DNA of 64,000 nucleotides. It comes from Bradyrhizobium cytisi (GTDB lineage: Bacteria; Pseudomonadota; Alphaproteobacteria; Rhizobiales; Xanthobacteraceae). The notes beneath the pieces are model-generated. The model saw nothing but the letters and a program-made list of their open reading frames with translations, searched no databases and was not told the DNA's origin. A program made the translations under genes and the position numbers. The stretch covers positions 1 through 64,000 of the forward strand of contig NZ_VSSR01000023.1 in NCBI RefSeq assembly GCF_008123515.1. The letters are read 5' to 3'. Below are positions 43,577-47,861 of this stretch, one piece after another (within the stretch, counting starts at the first letter, position 1; each line of letters starts with the position of its first letter).

Positions 43577-43960
43577 ATGCTTGCGAGTCTCAGCCTCATT
43601 CTGCTCTGCCAATTGATCGGCGAGGCCGTGGTCCGCGGCCTCGCCCTGCCGCTGCCGGGACCCGTGCTTGGCCTGGTGCTGCTTCTCGTCCTGCTGCTCG
43701 CACGCGACCGCTTTGCACGGCTCGCGCGCGGACCGCTGCGAAACGACGGCGTGGAGACCGCAAGCAAGGGCCTGCTGGCTCATCTGTCGCTGCTGTTCGT
43801 GCCCGCCGGCGTCGGTGTCGTGCAGAAGCTTGATCTGCTCGCCTCCCACGGCATCGCGATCGTCCTGGTGCTCGCGCTCTCGGTGGTCCTCACCTTGCTC
43901 GCGACCGTCCTGACCTTCCGCCTGATCAGCCGCCTGTTGAAGCAACAGGACGCCCGATGA
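43577..43960 (+). CDS. CidA/LrgA-family membrane protein
   Basis: A 127-residue protein with four hydrophobic helices and the family motif ALPLPGPVLGLVLLLVLLL in helices 1-2, then LSLLFVPAGVGV. It forms holin-like complexes with the LrgB partner encoded next (ATGA overlap). Roles proposed for the pair are control of murein hydrolase export or pyruvate transport. Start by homology; no clear ribosome site was noted. Confidence 0.9.
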   Translation: MLASLSLILLCQLIGEAVVRGLALPLPGPVLGLVLLLVLLLARDRFARLARGPLRNDGVETASKGLLAHLSLLFVPAGVGVVQKLDLLASHGIAIVLVLALSVVLTLLATVLTFRLISRLLKQQDAR

Positions 43961-44679
43961 AGGACAATCCGTTCTCGCTCTGGGTCTATCTCTCGCAATC
44001 TCCGCTGCTCTGGCTGACGGTGACGCTGATGGTCTATGCGACCACGGATGCGGTGTCGCTGGCGACGCGACGCCATCCGCTTGCCAATCCCGTGCTGCAT
44101 GCGATGTGGATCATCGGCGCGTTCCTGCTCGCGACCGGTACGTCCTACACCACCTATTTCGCCGGCGCCCAATTCGTACACTTCCTGCTTGGGCCCGCCA
44201 CCGTCGCACTCGCCGTGCCGCTCTACGAGAACCGCAAGCGGGTGGTTAGCTCCATCGTGCCAATGCTGGTGGCGCTGGTTGCAGGTTCGGTGACGGCCGT
44301 GGTGTCGGTCGTGTTGCTGGCCGAATTTGCCGGCCTGCCGCGCGACGTGGTGCTGTCGCTGGCGCCGAAATCGGTCACCGCCGGCGTTGCCATGGGCATC
44401 GCCGAATCCCTGCACGCGGATCCTTCGCTGGCGGCGGTTGCGGTCATCCTCACCGGCATCATGGGCGCGATCATTGTTTCGCCGCTCATGAACCGCACCG
44501 GCGTGACCGATTTCCGCGCCCGCGGCTTTGCTGCCGGCCTTGCCGCGCACGGCATAGGTACGGCACGCGCGTTCCAGGTCGACGAGATCGCCGGCGTCTT
44601 CTCCGGCATCGCCATGAGCCTCAATGCTCTGGTGACCTCGTTCCTGGTCCCCATGGTGGTGACCCTGCTGGTGCGATGA
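43957..44679 (+). CDS. lrgB: LrgB/CidB-family membrane protein
   Basis: A 240-residue inner-membrane protein with about seven helices. LGPATVALAVPLYENRK and LAPKSVTAGVAMGIAE are the conserved LrgB blocks, the second including the SVT...A segment. It overlaps lrgA by four bases, so the two are coupled. In the window it is followed by an independent gene after 87 bases. Confidence 0.93.
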   Translation: MKDNPFSLWVYLSQSPLLWLTVTLMVYATTDAVSLATRRHPLANPVLHAMWIIGAFLLATGTSYTTYFAGAQFVHFLLGPATVALAVPLYENRKRVVSSIVPMLVALVAGSVTAVVSVVLLAEFAGLPRDVVLSLAPKSVTAGVAMGIAESLHADPSLAAVAVILTGIMGAIIVSPLMNRTGVTDFRARGFAAGLAAHGIGTARAFQVDEIAGVFSGIAMSLNALVTSFLVPMVVTLLVR

Positions 44680-44766
44680 CATCGTCCTCGCCACACTCTA
44701 TATGGGGCGTAACACTTCCCGGTCCGGAGCCGTAATTGCGGTGATGGGACCGAAACGGGACGAGAT

Positions 44767-45426
44767 ATGGCTGGATTCAGGACTAAGGGCCTTGGGCTGA
44801 GCCGCCGCGCGGCGCTGACGCTGATCGGGGCAGGCACTTTCGCGGCTGGCGGTATGACCTTGGCGCGCGCAGGCACTGGTGATGACGAAGTGCTCACCGA
44901 AGCCAAGGTGCTGCGCGATCCGGACGTGCCCGTTGCCGGCAATCCCGATGGCAACATCAGCATCATCGAGTGGTCCGACTACAATTGTCCCTATTGCCGA
45001 AAGCTCGAGCCCGAATTGCGCCAGGTCATCCAGGACGACGGCAAGGTAAGGCTGGTCTTGAAAGACTGGCCGATCCTCGGGCCCGTCTCGGTGACGGCTG
45101 CCCGGATCGCGCTCGCCGCGAAATTCCAGGACAAATACCACCAGGCCCATGACGCCATGATGGGCGTCAGCTCGCGCCTGACCGAGTCGCGCATCAACGA
45201 GTTGCTCGCGGCCGCCGGCGTCGACATGGACCGCCTCAAGCGCGACCTCATCGCGCGCTCCAAGGACATCGACGCGATCCTCAAGCGCAACAACGACCAG
45301 GCTGAAGCCTTCGGCTTCCGCGGCACGCCGTCCTTTATTGTCGGCAAGTACCGCGTGCCTGGTGTGCTCAGCATGGCCGAGTTCGAGCAGGTCATCGCCG
45401 ACGCCCGCAAAGCCAAGATGAACTGA
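44767..45426 (+). CDS. DsbA-family thiol:disulfide protein, Tat-exported
   Basis: A 219-residue protein. The N-terminus carries a twin-arginine signal (LSRRAALTLIGAG), with cleavage near ARAG35. The thioredoxin-fold domain has the active site Cys74-Pro-Tyr-Cys77 (SDYNCPYCRK) and a cis-Pro loop GFRGTPSFIVG. It is the DsbA/Com1-like group; it oxidises or isomerises periplasmic disulfides. Tat rather than Sec export suggests folding before export. Confidence 0.92.
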   Translation: MAGFRTKGLGLSRRAALTLIGAGTFAAGGMTLARAGTGDDEVLTEAKVLRDPDVPVAGNPDGNISIIEWSDYNCPYCRKLEPELRQVIQDDGKVRLVLKDWPILGPVSVTAARIALAAKFQDKYHQAHDAMMGVSSRLTESRINELLAAAGVDMDRLKRDLIARSKDIDAILKRNNDQAEAFGFRGTPSFIVGKYRVPGVLSMAEFEQVIADARKAKMN

Positions 45427-45455
45427 CGCGCAAGCGGCCGATCGCAGCCAGCACA

Positions 45456-45486
45456 AAGGCGCCGCCGCGGATCGCGACGGCGCCTT
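45456..45486. terminator. Stem-loop between convergent genes
   Basis: AAGGCGCCG and CGGCGCCTT form a 9-bp stem around a 13-base loop, then TGTTCAT on the plus strand. It lies between the DsbA-like gene and the small membrane protein gene, and can end both transcripts. Confidence 0.7.
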
Positions 45487-45508
45487 GTTCATATTCGGTC
45501 GATCGAGA

Positions 45509-45715
45509 TTACTTCGACGAGATCCTGACCCAGTCCTTATGCGCGCGGTCGCGTAGCGCGTCCCAGTCGGCCTTCGCGACATCCCAGTTCACGATGGTGC
45601 GATTGGCAGTCGCGACCTCGCCATTGGCGACTGACGACGTCTGCATGGAGTCATAGACATACACGCCGCAGCCGAGCAGCAGCGCACCCAAAATCATTCC
45701 GAAAAAAGTCTGCAT
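45509..45715 (-). CDS. Small membrane-anchored protein, unknown
   Basis: A 68-residue protein with one N-terminal hydrophobic helix (MQTFFGMILGALLLGCGVYVYD) and a soluble tail with TIVNWDVAKADWDALRDRAHKDW. CGGAGG before the ATG at 45715 supports this start; the frame continues 34 codons further up without signal. The tail probably faces the periplasm. I do not recognise the family. Confidence 0.65.
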   Translation of the reverse strand: MQTFFGMILGALLLGCGVYVYDSMQTSSVANGEVATANRTIVNWDVAKADWDALRDRAHKDWVRISSK

Positions 45716-45801
45716 GGCGAACCTCCGGTGTCGGGCGGATAACGTCGGGCCCGGAGTGATGGTTCCGCGACAGTGCGGCGCGGTTAAGGACGCTTCGTTC
45801 A

Positions 45802-46869
45802 TCACCCGTTCAGCCATTGCAGCAGCTCAGCGTTGATCTCGCGCGGATAGGTATGACTGAGGTCGTCGATCTCGCGGTATGTGACATCGGCGCCGGCGGC
45901 GGTGAGTGCCGCTTGCGTCTGCCGTGCGGTCTGCACCGGAAACATCCAGTCGAGCTTGCCGTGGGTGATGAAGATCGGCAGGCCCCGTAGTCGCGTGGCG
46001 TCGGTGATCTCCGCCATCAGCGGATGGAAGGTCGCCGACACCGGCGCGAGGTGGGTGAATGGCGAAGCACCGTCGAGACCGCTGACATAGCTGAAGGTGC
46101 CGCCGTCGCTCATGCCGGTCAGCAGCAGGCGCGAGGCGTCGATGCTCCAGCGACCGCGCACGGTTTCGAGGATGCGCATGAGATTGGGCGTGTCGCCGTC
46201 GTCGCCCGTCAGCGCCCAGGTCGAGCCGGTCGCTGTCGGCGCCACCAGGATCGCGCCAAGACTGCGGGCATCGCGCAACCAGCTCCACAGAAAGCCGCGT
46301 CCGTTGCCGCTGCCGCCATGCAGCGCCATCACCAGAGGCCAGCTGCGATCGGGCGTGTAATATTCGGGAACATAGACCGAGAAGCCGCCGCGGCTGCCGG
46401 GCTCGTTGTGATCGTGAAAGATGCCGGTGTCCTCGCTGGCGCCGACTTCCAGCCGCGCCAGCAGCTCACCATTCTCGCGACTGGCGCTGTTGAGGAAGAA
46501 GTTGCTCACTGGCGGAAATTGCAGCGATAGCGGATACAGCGCCTCCTGTGCGCGCGGCACATGGCGCAACGCGCGGAACACCGCGACGAGATCGCCGTTG
46601 CCGCGCTCGACATCGCGGATGGCGGCGAAGGCGGCGAGCGTCTCGTTGCAGGCACGATCGAGCCGCTCGCGCAGTCCGGCGAATTGCTCCGGCCACGCGC
46701 CGATTGCTGCATGTGCCGACCGAAGCGCATCGTCCGGCGCGCCGATGGCGTTCATCACCGTGGCGAAGGCCGGCGGATGCAGATGCCGCTGGAAGAAGCC
46801 GAGCGCCTCCAGCGCGTTGAGCAACGGCGGCAGCATGGCCACGATGTCGTCCACCACGGCCTCGGTCAT
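45802..46869 (-). CDS. Alpha/beta-hydrolase (esterase) with long N-terminal domain
   Basis: A 355-residue protein: an N-terminal helical region (1-155), then an alpha/beta-hydrolase core. PLVMALHGGSGNGRGFLWSW gives the oxyanion loop, GMSDGGTFSYV the nucleophile Ser, and THGKLDWMFP a late Asp, with the His probably in DLSHTYP. Related to phospholipase/carboxylesterase or polyhydroxybutyrate-depolymerase-like esterases. No signal peptide. It begins 20 bases after the HtrA-like gene, so the two form an operon. Confidence 0.82.
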   Translation of the reverse strand: MTEAVVDDIVAMLPPLLNALEALGFFQRHLHPPAFATVMNAIGAPDDALRSAHAAIGAWPEQFAGLRERLDRACNETLAAFAAIRDVERGNGDLVAVFRALRHVPRAQEALYPLSLQFPPVSNFFLNSASRENGELLARLEVGASEDTGIFHDHNEPGSRGGFSVYVPEYYTPDRSWPLVMALHGGSGNGRGFLWSWLRDARSLGAILVAPTATGSTWALTGDDGDTPNLMRILETVRGRWSIDASRLLLTGMSDGGTFSYVSGLDGASPFTHLAPVSATFHPLMAEITDATRLRGLPIFITHGKLDWMFPVQTARQTQAALTAAGADVTYREIDDLSHTYPREINAELLQWLNG

Positions 46870-46889
46870 TGCCGCTTCCCTTGCTCGGA

Positions 46890-47861
46890 TCAGTGCAGCT
46901 TCGGCGCTTTCAGAAGCTTGAAGCGGTCGGTCGACGTCACGGTGACGTCGAAGGTGACGCCTTCATGATGCACGGTGAGCGGCACGTCGACGCCGGCGGC
47001 GCCGAGACTCCACATCTTCTTGTAGAACGCCGTTTGGCTCGTGACCTTGTCGCCATCCACCGCAAGAATGATGTCGTCGGTCTTGAGTTCCGCGCGCGCG
47101 GCGGGACTGTTGGCGGAGATCCCGATCACCACCACGCGGTTGTCGATCTCGGTCGAATAGAGTCCGAGCCAGGGCCGTGCCGGCTTGTTGACGCGGCCGA
47201 ACTTGCGGAGATCATCGAGGATCGGCTTCAACAGGTCGATCGGCACGATCATGTTGACGTGCTCGGCCTTGCCGTCGCGTTCTCGCTCGAGCTGGAGCGA
47301 GCCGATGCCGATCAGCTCGCCGCGCGCGTTGATCAATCCGGTGCCACCCCAATTCGGATGGGCGGGATAGGTGAACAAGGCCTCGTCGAGCAGATACTCC
47401 CAGTAGCCGGCGAATTCCTGCTTGGCGACGATCTGGCTTGCGACCGATCGCGTCCGTCCCCCGGCGCCACCGACCACGACGCGGTCGCCGAGCCGGGTCT
47501 CCGCCGACGAGCCGAGCGGCAGCGGCTCGATGTCGAGCCGGCCGAGCGCCTGTACCAGGCCGAAGCCGGTGACGGCATCGAAGCCGAGCACATGCCCCTC
47601 CACCACGCGCCCGTCGCCGAGGTGAAGCCAAACGGATTCCGCTTCGGTAATGAGATAGCCGATGGTGAGCACCAGCCCGTCGTCGATGACGACGCCGTTG
47701 CCGGCGCGCTCGGTACCGAGCGTTTCGGCGCTGAAGGCATCCGGCGGGATGATGGCGTGCAGGCCAATGACGGAGGCGAGCGCACGGTCGAGATCGAAGC
47801 CGTAATCGCTCGCACGCGGTTGATTGGCCGGCGGCACTCTCCATTCGGTCAAGGCGGGCAT
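46890..47861 (-). CDS. HtrA-like PDZ protein with lost catalytic triad (pseudoprotease)
   Basis: A 323-residue protein: a trypsin-like fold (residues 25-215) and one PDZ domain (about 228-310, with RPWLGLYS). No signal peptide. In the protease part every triad position is changed: the His position reads Tyr69 (VLTIGYLITEA in place of TNNHVV), the Asp position Gly99 (DAVTGFGLV in place of TDLAVL), and the Ser position Trp171 (PNWGGTGL in place of GNSGGPL). AGGAGAA before the ATG at 47861 supports the start. It is probably a binding or scaffold protein. It is followed by the esterase gene after 20 bases. Confidence 0.88.
   Translation of the reverse strand: MPALTEWRVPPANQPRASDYGFDLDRALASVIGLHAIIPPDAFSAETLGTERAGNGVVIDDGLVLTIGYLITEAESVWLHLGDGRVVEGHVLGFDAVTGFGLVQALGRLDIEPLPLGSSAETRLGDRVVVGGAGGRTRSVASQIVAKQEFAGYWEYLLDEALFTYPAHPNWGGTGLINARGELIGIGSLQLERERDGKAEHVNMIVPIDLLKPILDDLRKFGRVNKPARPWLGLYSTEIDNRVVVIGISANSPAARAELKTDDIILAVDGDKVTSQTAFYKKMWSLGAAGVDVPLTVHHEGVTFDVTVTSTDRFKLLKAPKLH

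Follow-up and report, generated by a model that had tools for sequence, protein, structure and literature searches.

The window, the whole 64,000-nucleotide (nt) stretch of Bradyrhizobium cytisi DNA analysed here (contig NZ_VSSR01000023.1), carries on its minus strand a gene for an HtrA-like protein with a PDZ domain, in which all three residues of the catalytic triad are replaced. At the sequence level this pseudo-HtrA is a member of a conserved, widespread pseudoprotease family, referred to below as the Y/G family, and not an oddity of one gene pair. The alignments of its relatives give good support to the triad loss being an ancient, conserved state and not decay. What the databases call a protease is, by its residues, very probably not a protease, a lack of proteolysis that we infer. 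A non-proteolytic PDZ binding or scaffold protein of HtrA origin, with a rebuilt pocket, is the function that we favour, at somewhat better than even chances. The features concerned are located in the window as follows.

46890..47861, minus strand: pseudo-HtrA gene, 323 amino acids and a stop codon; Y/G pseudoprotease family, subfamily A (open reading frame; Pfam Trypsin_2 and PDZ_2; AGGAG)
47304..47702, minus strand: trypsin-like domain, residues 54-186 (Pfam PF13365, Trypsin_2, E value 1.9e-16, 61.5 bits)
46938..47168, minus strand: PDZ domain, residues 232-308, with the conserved RPWLG carboxylate loop at its start (Pfam PF13180, PDZ_2, 49.2 bits)
47655..47657, minus strand: Tyr69, at the catalytic His position (DegS alignment and family columns)
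47565..47567, minus strand: Gly99, at the catalytic Asp position (DegS alignment and family columns)
47394..47402, minus strand: Trp154-Glu155-Tyr156, within FAGYWEY (family columns; pairwise DegS alignment)
47346..47351, minus strand: Trp171-Gly172, with Gly172 in the catalytic Ser column and Trp171 in the preceding Asn column (DegS and family alignment)
46893..46904, minus strand: C-terminus Pro320-Lys-Leu-His323 (tail counts in subfamily A)
45802..46869, minus strand: alpha/beta-hydrolase esterase, 355 amino acids, with Ser254 (GMSDG), Asp307 and His339; a lineage-specific neighbour (open reading frame, Pfam, model, Foldseek)
43577..44679, plus strand: lrgA (43577-43960) and lrgB (43957-44679), esterase neighbours in other genera too (Pfam)

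The open reading frames of the pseudo-HtrA and the esterase lie head to tail, pseudo-HtrA first, with 20 nt between the stop codon of the former and the ATG of the latter, and an AGGAG motif stands six nt 5' of the pseudo-HtrA ATG at 47861. The reading-frame list and the sequence bear out the coordinates, strand and gap given in the original prediction, which had been made from the letters of the stretch. A promoter and terminator scan returned one promoter-like site (0.4 in shuffled sequences) and one terminator-like site (1.7 in shuffles), neither of which was used. The Trypsin_2 and PDZ_2 matches both exceed the Pfam cut-off, which is the architecture of the HtrA/Deg (S1C) proteins, a family of trimers or higher oligomers, and agrees with the earlier statement that the fold signatures and the PDZ domain are kept. 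The HtrA origin is further indicated by a profile comparison in which DegP-like, DegP, DegQ and DegS chains are matched (E values down to 8.1e-28, residues 51-303); the protein scores below every listed cut-off of the NCBIfam HtrA models, for instance 92.6 vs 422.95 bits for DegS. As predicted, no signal peptide is apparent: no hydrophobic segment is visible at the N-terminus under a rule of thumb (a 17-residue hydrophobicity mean of at least 1.6) used in place of a signal-peptide predictor.

In the HMMER alignment of the window protein to DegS (u45212/3gcn), the catalytic His, Asp and Ser are matched by Tyr69, Gly99 and Gly172, respectively. The segment HPNWGG lies on NPGNSGG of DegS, which places Trp171 on the Asn that precedes the Ser. 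The family alignment gives the same columns: all 13 ordinary HtrAs (ten from the window's GTDB family, six of these from its own genome, and three from elsewhere in the phylum) have His, Asp and Ser at columns 69, 99 and 172, and column 171 is Asn in 12 of them and Asp in one. The original prediction had named Tyr69, Gly99 and Trp171 as the replaced triad; its first two assignments hold, and the third shifts by one residue, since both alignments put the Ser column at Gly172. The accompanying remark that complete triad loss is uncommon needs a qualifier, because a 2008 survey counted, in its available text, 42 homologues as putatively inactive in a total of 966 serine proteases (five families; PMC2605481), and a second damaged HtrA-like protein is encoded in the same genome. 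The latter (L326:2435-3298, G000:C161:79934-80797) is a signal-less PDZ protein that, by eye, reads TADEAL for TNNHVV, keeps the Asp and has SQEGG for GNSGG; relatives of at least 45% identity occur in six family genomes (its own among them) out of 61. Two further trypsin-like frames of this genome were inspected by eye. The 478-residue frame of L327 (G000:C98, about 79420-79797) has a signal-like N-terminus, a His motif that looks lost and a kept SGG, and the 538-residue frame of L329 (G000:C68, about 69509-69925) joins a retron-like reverse transcriptase to a trypsin-like domain in which the His, Asp and Ser motifs look intact.

The replacements recur throughout the relatives of the window protein. 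In 80/80 Bradyrhizobium-type loci, Tyr, Gly, Trp and Gly occupy positions 69, 99, 171 and 172; these loci are the 80 top-scoring ones among 567 confirmed matches and hence close relatives, almost every one with Bradyrhizobium in its title. An orthologue of at least 51% identity is present in 104 of the 149 genomes of the GTDB family; the 91 that were compared all have Tyr, Gly and Trp, with Gly (90) or Ser (1) at position 172. Widening the profile search, at a strict E value, gives 36 matching genomes in the order sample (n = 249), 68 in the class sample (n = 289) and 38 in the phylum sample (n = 398); of these, 8, 1 and 11, respectively, come from the genus or family of the window itself. Family-level scores are retained by 65/289 class and 35/398 phylum genomes once three genomes each with a best match of at most 113 bits (ordinary HtrAs, or fragments in two class genomes) are dropped, and two genomes of the phylum sample, G957 and G874, carry such scores outside the class. 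The Y/G family is thus found mainly in Alphaproteobacteria, where it appears to be hidden under the annotation 'S1C family serine protease'; both annotated records among the four opened for plasmid-borne relatives use this name. Such relatives were recovered by tblastn (E value at most 1e-30) in 26 plasmid or chromid records, from Rhizobium (8), Neorhizobium (8), Azospirillum (7), Phyllobacterium (2) and Pararhizobium (1). Three pattern matches were obtained among the viral sequences of IMG/VR, none of them a relative. One locus at 98% protein identity (L009, JAUEPE010000021.1) is titled Frankia sp. RB7 and probably comes from a mislabelled assembly.

For column counts, a family set of 311 open reading frames of at least 180 bits was assembled from part of the matching genomes, of which 271 are non-identical. 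No frame of 113-260 bits occurs in the fetched loci, and with this gap empty no intermediates are seen. Position 69 is Tyr and position 99 is Gly in 271/271 members. Position 171 is Trp in 263, Phe in 4, Tyr in 2 and His in 2, and position 172 is Gly in 231, Ser in 31, Ala in 7, Thr in 1 and Asn in 1. From these counts the His and Asp changes are fixed, with the Ser column still varying. The family signature, all of which is present in the window protein, consists of Tyr for His, Gly for Asp, an invariant WEY and usually HPxW[G/S]G. As Tyr and Gly are common to every relative, chance is excluded as the origin of the triad loss. An intact triad at shifted positions, the finding that would have overturned the original claim, was looked for in these homologues without success, although new conservation of a His, a Ser and some Asp is seen at other positions. 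The ratio of non-synonymous to synonymous substitution rates (dN/dS) of the window gene, against 11 loci chosen from the 80, ranges from 0.04 to 0.15, with a median of 0.12. Recent decay and assembly error were considered and are ruled out by this ratio and by the states common to all members.

A maximum-likelihood tree, quickly built from 138 rows (93 of subfamily A, 32 of subfamily B and 13 HtrAs), for which the program warned of long branches and unusual composition, places the 125 family members, every one with Tyr and Gly, in one clade (100 in the Shimodaira-Hasegawa-like approximate likelihood-ratio test, SH-aLRT). The branch that splits it from the ordinary HtrAs is long, measuring 0.75 to either side of the root. 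The subfamilies were assigned by the better-scoring profile and are working names, since their labels change 4 and 3 times on the tree and neither forms a clean clade. They differ at the N-terminus, which is signal-like in 27 of 32 subfamily B frames vs 5 of 239 in subfamily A; because the subfamily A frames extend back to the preceding stop codon, hydrophobic segments may lie before the real start. Under the same hydrophobicity rule, the export signal or membrane anchor of active HtrAs is lacking in the window protein and in most of subfamily A. Taken together, the N-termini suggest that subfamily A is cytoplasmic and subfamily B mostly periplasmic, and the characterization of the window protein as a non-proteolytic, cytoplasmic PDZ protein of HtrA origin is well supported by its sequence. 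A subfamily B paralogue is observed in 35 of the 149 family genomes, in 33 of them together with subfamily A, and in 0 of the 35 genomes that have the esterase, a distribution which may reflect kinship only.

The loops that surrounded the former active site are strongly conserved. They carry 3.31 bits per column (59 columns, picked by hand) vs 2.23 elsewhere in the protease domain (124 columns; Mann-Whitney p 5e-10; 271 rows, effective number 131). Their non-catalytic invariants include Tyr69, Glu73, Gly99 and the Trp154, Glu155 and Tyr156 triplet, each residue of which is found in 271/271 members. His168 is kept in 257/271 (Asn in 13/13 ordinary HtrAs) and gives way to another residue in 11 of the 32 members of subfamily B; Ser188 is kept in 270/271 (Thr in 12/13 ordinary HtrAs). 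Asp209 occurs in 246/271 and Asp217 in 247/271, and Asp95 (270/271) is likewise present in 13/13 ordinary HtrAs. The carboxylate loop of the PDZ domain, RPWLG, has 3.51 bits over 7 columns, with Arg or Lys at position 229 in 266/271.

A possible route between these two regions is suggested by DegS, in which the L3 loop (176-189) is the sensor loop that carries the PDZ-binding signal to the active site, with Asn182 and Met319 as the pair clashing upon activation, as described in the available part of PMC11642142. In the pairwise alignment to 3gcn, FAGYWEY falls on DegS 178-184, inside L3; numbering is that of the chain plus 15, in agreement with Arg178, Asn182 and Met319 in the same text. Within this gap-free alignment Trp154 lies on Asn182 and Tyr280 on Met319, a match which is tentative because the loop gaps fall differently in the multiple alignment.

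The C-terminus is equally constrained. Complete subfamily A proteins end in His in 210/238 cases and have Pro at position -4 in 229/238, and the ending P-x-[LMVIF]-H is present in 206/239. The background of C-terminal His is 8% among 1279 crudely predicted open reading frames from 87 loci, family genes included. The 32 subfamily B proteins end in KST[LFY] (15) or, more generally, [ST][LFY] (26). A class I-like PDZ-ligand C-terminus has the form S/T-x-hydrophobic, and 19 of these ends fit it. An attractive candidate reading, on the strength of these counts, is that the fixed tail would serve as a built-in PDZ ligand.

Among described systems, the closest analogue found appears to be MamO. Both have an HtrA-derived trypsin-like domain, kept in Alphaproteobacteria for non-catalytic work with a dispensable active site, according to the available text of PMC4794232. 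MamO, which acts in magnetosome formation and carries a TauE-like domain, retains His116 and Asp149, with Thr225 where the Ser would be (same source, as available), whereas the Y/G family has Tyr and Gly at the first two positions and the window protein Tyr, Gly and Gly. Unlike MamO, the Y/G family has a fixed tail and no conserved neighbourhood. With DegS, which gives its best matches among solved structures, the window protein shares one trypsin-like domain and one PDZ domain; in contrast to DegS, it has no triad and no signal, and its L3-equivalent loop reads FAGYWEY. Bacterial serine protease homologues (SPHs) without catalytic residues are recognized as a class, in a survey that included Bradyrhizobium japonicum, and the Y/G family is not named in the portion of the survey text available (PMC2605481). 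Pseudo-orthocaspases, conserved bacterial pseudoproteases that are frequent in Rhizobiales and commonly have Tyr for His (PMC6426788, available part), are caspase-like and not trypsin-like and offer an analogy only. There is no dedicated Pfam or NCBIfam model for the family, and no paper on it was found among those listed in a search by title and abstract start that had most subscription journals outside its range.

The original prediction went on to propose that the PDZ protein guides the esterase or its substrates. The sole Pfam domain found in the esterase is Abhydrolase_2, and its model (mean predicted local distance difference test, pLDDT, 69.7) shows a helical N-terminal part of about residues 1-141 followed by an alpha/beta-hydrolase. 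Ser254 as GxSxG nucleophile, Asp307 and His339 are invariant in 19/19 esterase rows. The relatives include LC-Est1C, an alpha/beta-hydrolase of the polyhydroxybutyrate (PHB)-depolymerase/LC-Est1 type, and the protein falls short of the NCBIfam depolymerase cut-offs (56.2 vs 150 bits). Among the 50 Foldseek matches listed (of 1184), esterases and other alpha/beta-hydrolases predominate, and none of these 50 gives a clear match to the helical N-terminal part.

Dedicated service to this esterase, by binding it or delivering its substrate, is an unlikely role for the pseudoprotease, even though the pairing is strict in Bradyrhizobium. There the esterase lies 3' of the pseudo-HtrA on the same strand in 80/80 loci, with a gap of at most 104 nt in 78 and of 1,679 and 2,336 nt in the other two; in L087 the match covers residues 1-274 only and stops at the contig end. 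Beyond Bradyrhizobium and a few relatives there is no conserved gene pairing, which the original prediction had named as a finding that would count against it. Among the 149 family genomes, 35 have the esterase, 31 with the pseudoprotease and 4 without, and in 73 of the 104 genomes with the pseudoprotease no intact esterase accompanies it. By coordinates the two genes adjoin in 13 of the 31 genomes that have both: seven of the genus Bradyrhizobium, G135 in the same order and five g26 genomes in which the esterase precedes the pseudoprotease, so that adjacency does recur. As for the remaining genomes, the esterase of G095 lies some 5 kb off on the opposite strand, and that of the other 17 on another contig or far away. 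G140, also of g26, has the esterase in broken pieces and an intact pseudoprotease elsewhere. The pseudoprotease is present in 31/35 esterase genomes vs 73/114 others, a weak association uncorrected for kinship (Fisher p 0.006). At G122:C1:965650-966710, the esterase is read in two frames beside an intact pseudoprotease, with a frameshift either in the gene or in the assembly. The esterase has a neighbourhood of its own: 22 esterase loci are not beside a pseudoprotease, and in the 16 of them that were compared, lrgB follows the esterase in 7 (L330-L333, L336, L338 and L339) and lrgA in 6, an arrangement also present in the window (43577-46869). From gene order, the pairing looks like a lineage-level event. 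The esterase also evolves faster (dN/dS 0.15-0.30, median 0.24, over the same 11 loci), and its C-terminus in the window, WLNG, shows no PDZ-ligand pattern by eye. A link between the two proteins may exist within the lineage; the esterase is probably not a general partner, and guidance of it as a family function is not supported by these counts. The neighbour comparisons bring up no other family-wide partner. Over 87 loci, in 79 of which a crude caller recovered the gene itself, none of the 40 neighbour clusters listed occurs in more than 18 loci; the commonest neighbour appears in at most 5 of 30 loci queried with subfamily B and at most 4 of 27 others, mostly of subfamily A. In the two annotated plasmid records, no common neighbour is seen by product name beyond unspecific ones.

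The invariant Tyr69, Glu73, Trp154, Glu155 and Tyr156, together with the near-invariant His168, could instead form a new active site or a metal or small-molecule site, which would make the protein an enzyme or sensor more than a scaffold. MamO, an HtrA pseudoprotease turned to metal binding, with a di-histidine metal site on its surface, in the available account (PMC4794232), offers a precedent; nevertheless, no pattern like a known catalytic or metal set is recognized by eye, no conserved enzyme neighbour is found in the neighbour comparisons and His168 is often replaced in subfamily B, and a new site is regarded as a rather doubtful, minority explanation. The same residues bear on a protease with its catalytic set at shifted positions. 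The conserved His168, Ser188, Asp209 and Asp217, and the Ser column, which is Ser in 22/32 subfamily B proteins (9/239 in subfamily A), would speak for it. However, the classical His and Asp columns are without exception Tyr and Gly, and no His of the protease domain reaches 97%, which makes residual proteolysis of this kind highly implausible. Another proposal, that the protein is a regulatory subunit of an active HtrA, in mixed assemblies or acting on it, would fit the apparent export of most of subfamily B to where active HtrAs work. HtrA proteases are not expected in the cytoplasm, where subfamily A appears to reside, and the frequent neighbours that were listed include no active HtrA. MamO, without an active site of its own, promotes MamE-dependent proteolysis, yet a physical MamE-MamO interaction was not detected, both according to the accessible text of PMC4794232; regulation of an HtrA is considered very unlikely.

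The favoured reading, a non-proteolytic binding protein of HtrA origin, can be put as a mechanism. Classical His-Asp-Ser peptide cleavage should not be possible for the family. The PDZ domain would take a C-terminal peptide, and the grip or signal would go via the altered L3 loop, with its invariant Trp-Glu-Tyr, to the former active site, where a rebuilt, aromatic-rich pocket would hold or release a partner with no cutting. The fixed C-terminus would be a candidate built-in PDZ ligand of the same or a neighbouring subunit. Subfamily A would act in the cytoplasm and subfamily B mostly in the periplasm, and if the esterase is a partner at all, it would be so only in Bradyrhizobium and a few relatives. 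The triad loss, the single clade, the two kinds of N-terminus, the conserved loops and tails and the pairing counts are observed directly; ligand binding, PDZ-to-pocket coupling, location and the role of the tail are deduced from them. Several points weigh against this reading. The Ser column is mostly still Ser in subfamily B, and no family-wide partner gene emerges from the neighbour comparisons. The loops were chosen by hand and have no matching comparison for ordinary HtrAs, which conserve these loops too, and the L3 match depends on gap placement. The AlphaFold2 model built from 29 close rows reaches a pLDDT of 37 and was not used. Furthermore, the conserved loops and His168, Ser188, Asp95, Asp209 and Asp217 could equally mean a new catalytic function. 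A bolder version, which we put forward tentatively and with the chances clearly against it, sees class-wide HtrA-fold receptors with cytosolic and periplasmic branches, in which an aromatic pocket would be coupled by the Trp-Glu-Tyr L3 loop to a PDZ domain binding the family's own tail, with assembly or autoinhibition through the tail in the PDZ domain.

If the favoured reading is right, many alphaproteobacterial genomes carry an HtrA-type 'serine protease' that is not one, and a widely conserved bacterial HtrA fold would have been turned to binding, with a cytosolic branch. With its invariant replacements, its fixed tail, its two compartments and hosts as tractable as Bradyrhizobium, Rhizobium and Azospirillum, the family would then be a clean system for the re-use of PDZ-to-active-site allostery after classical catalysis has been lost.

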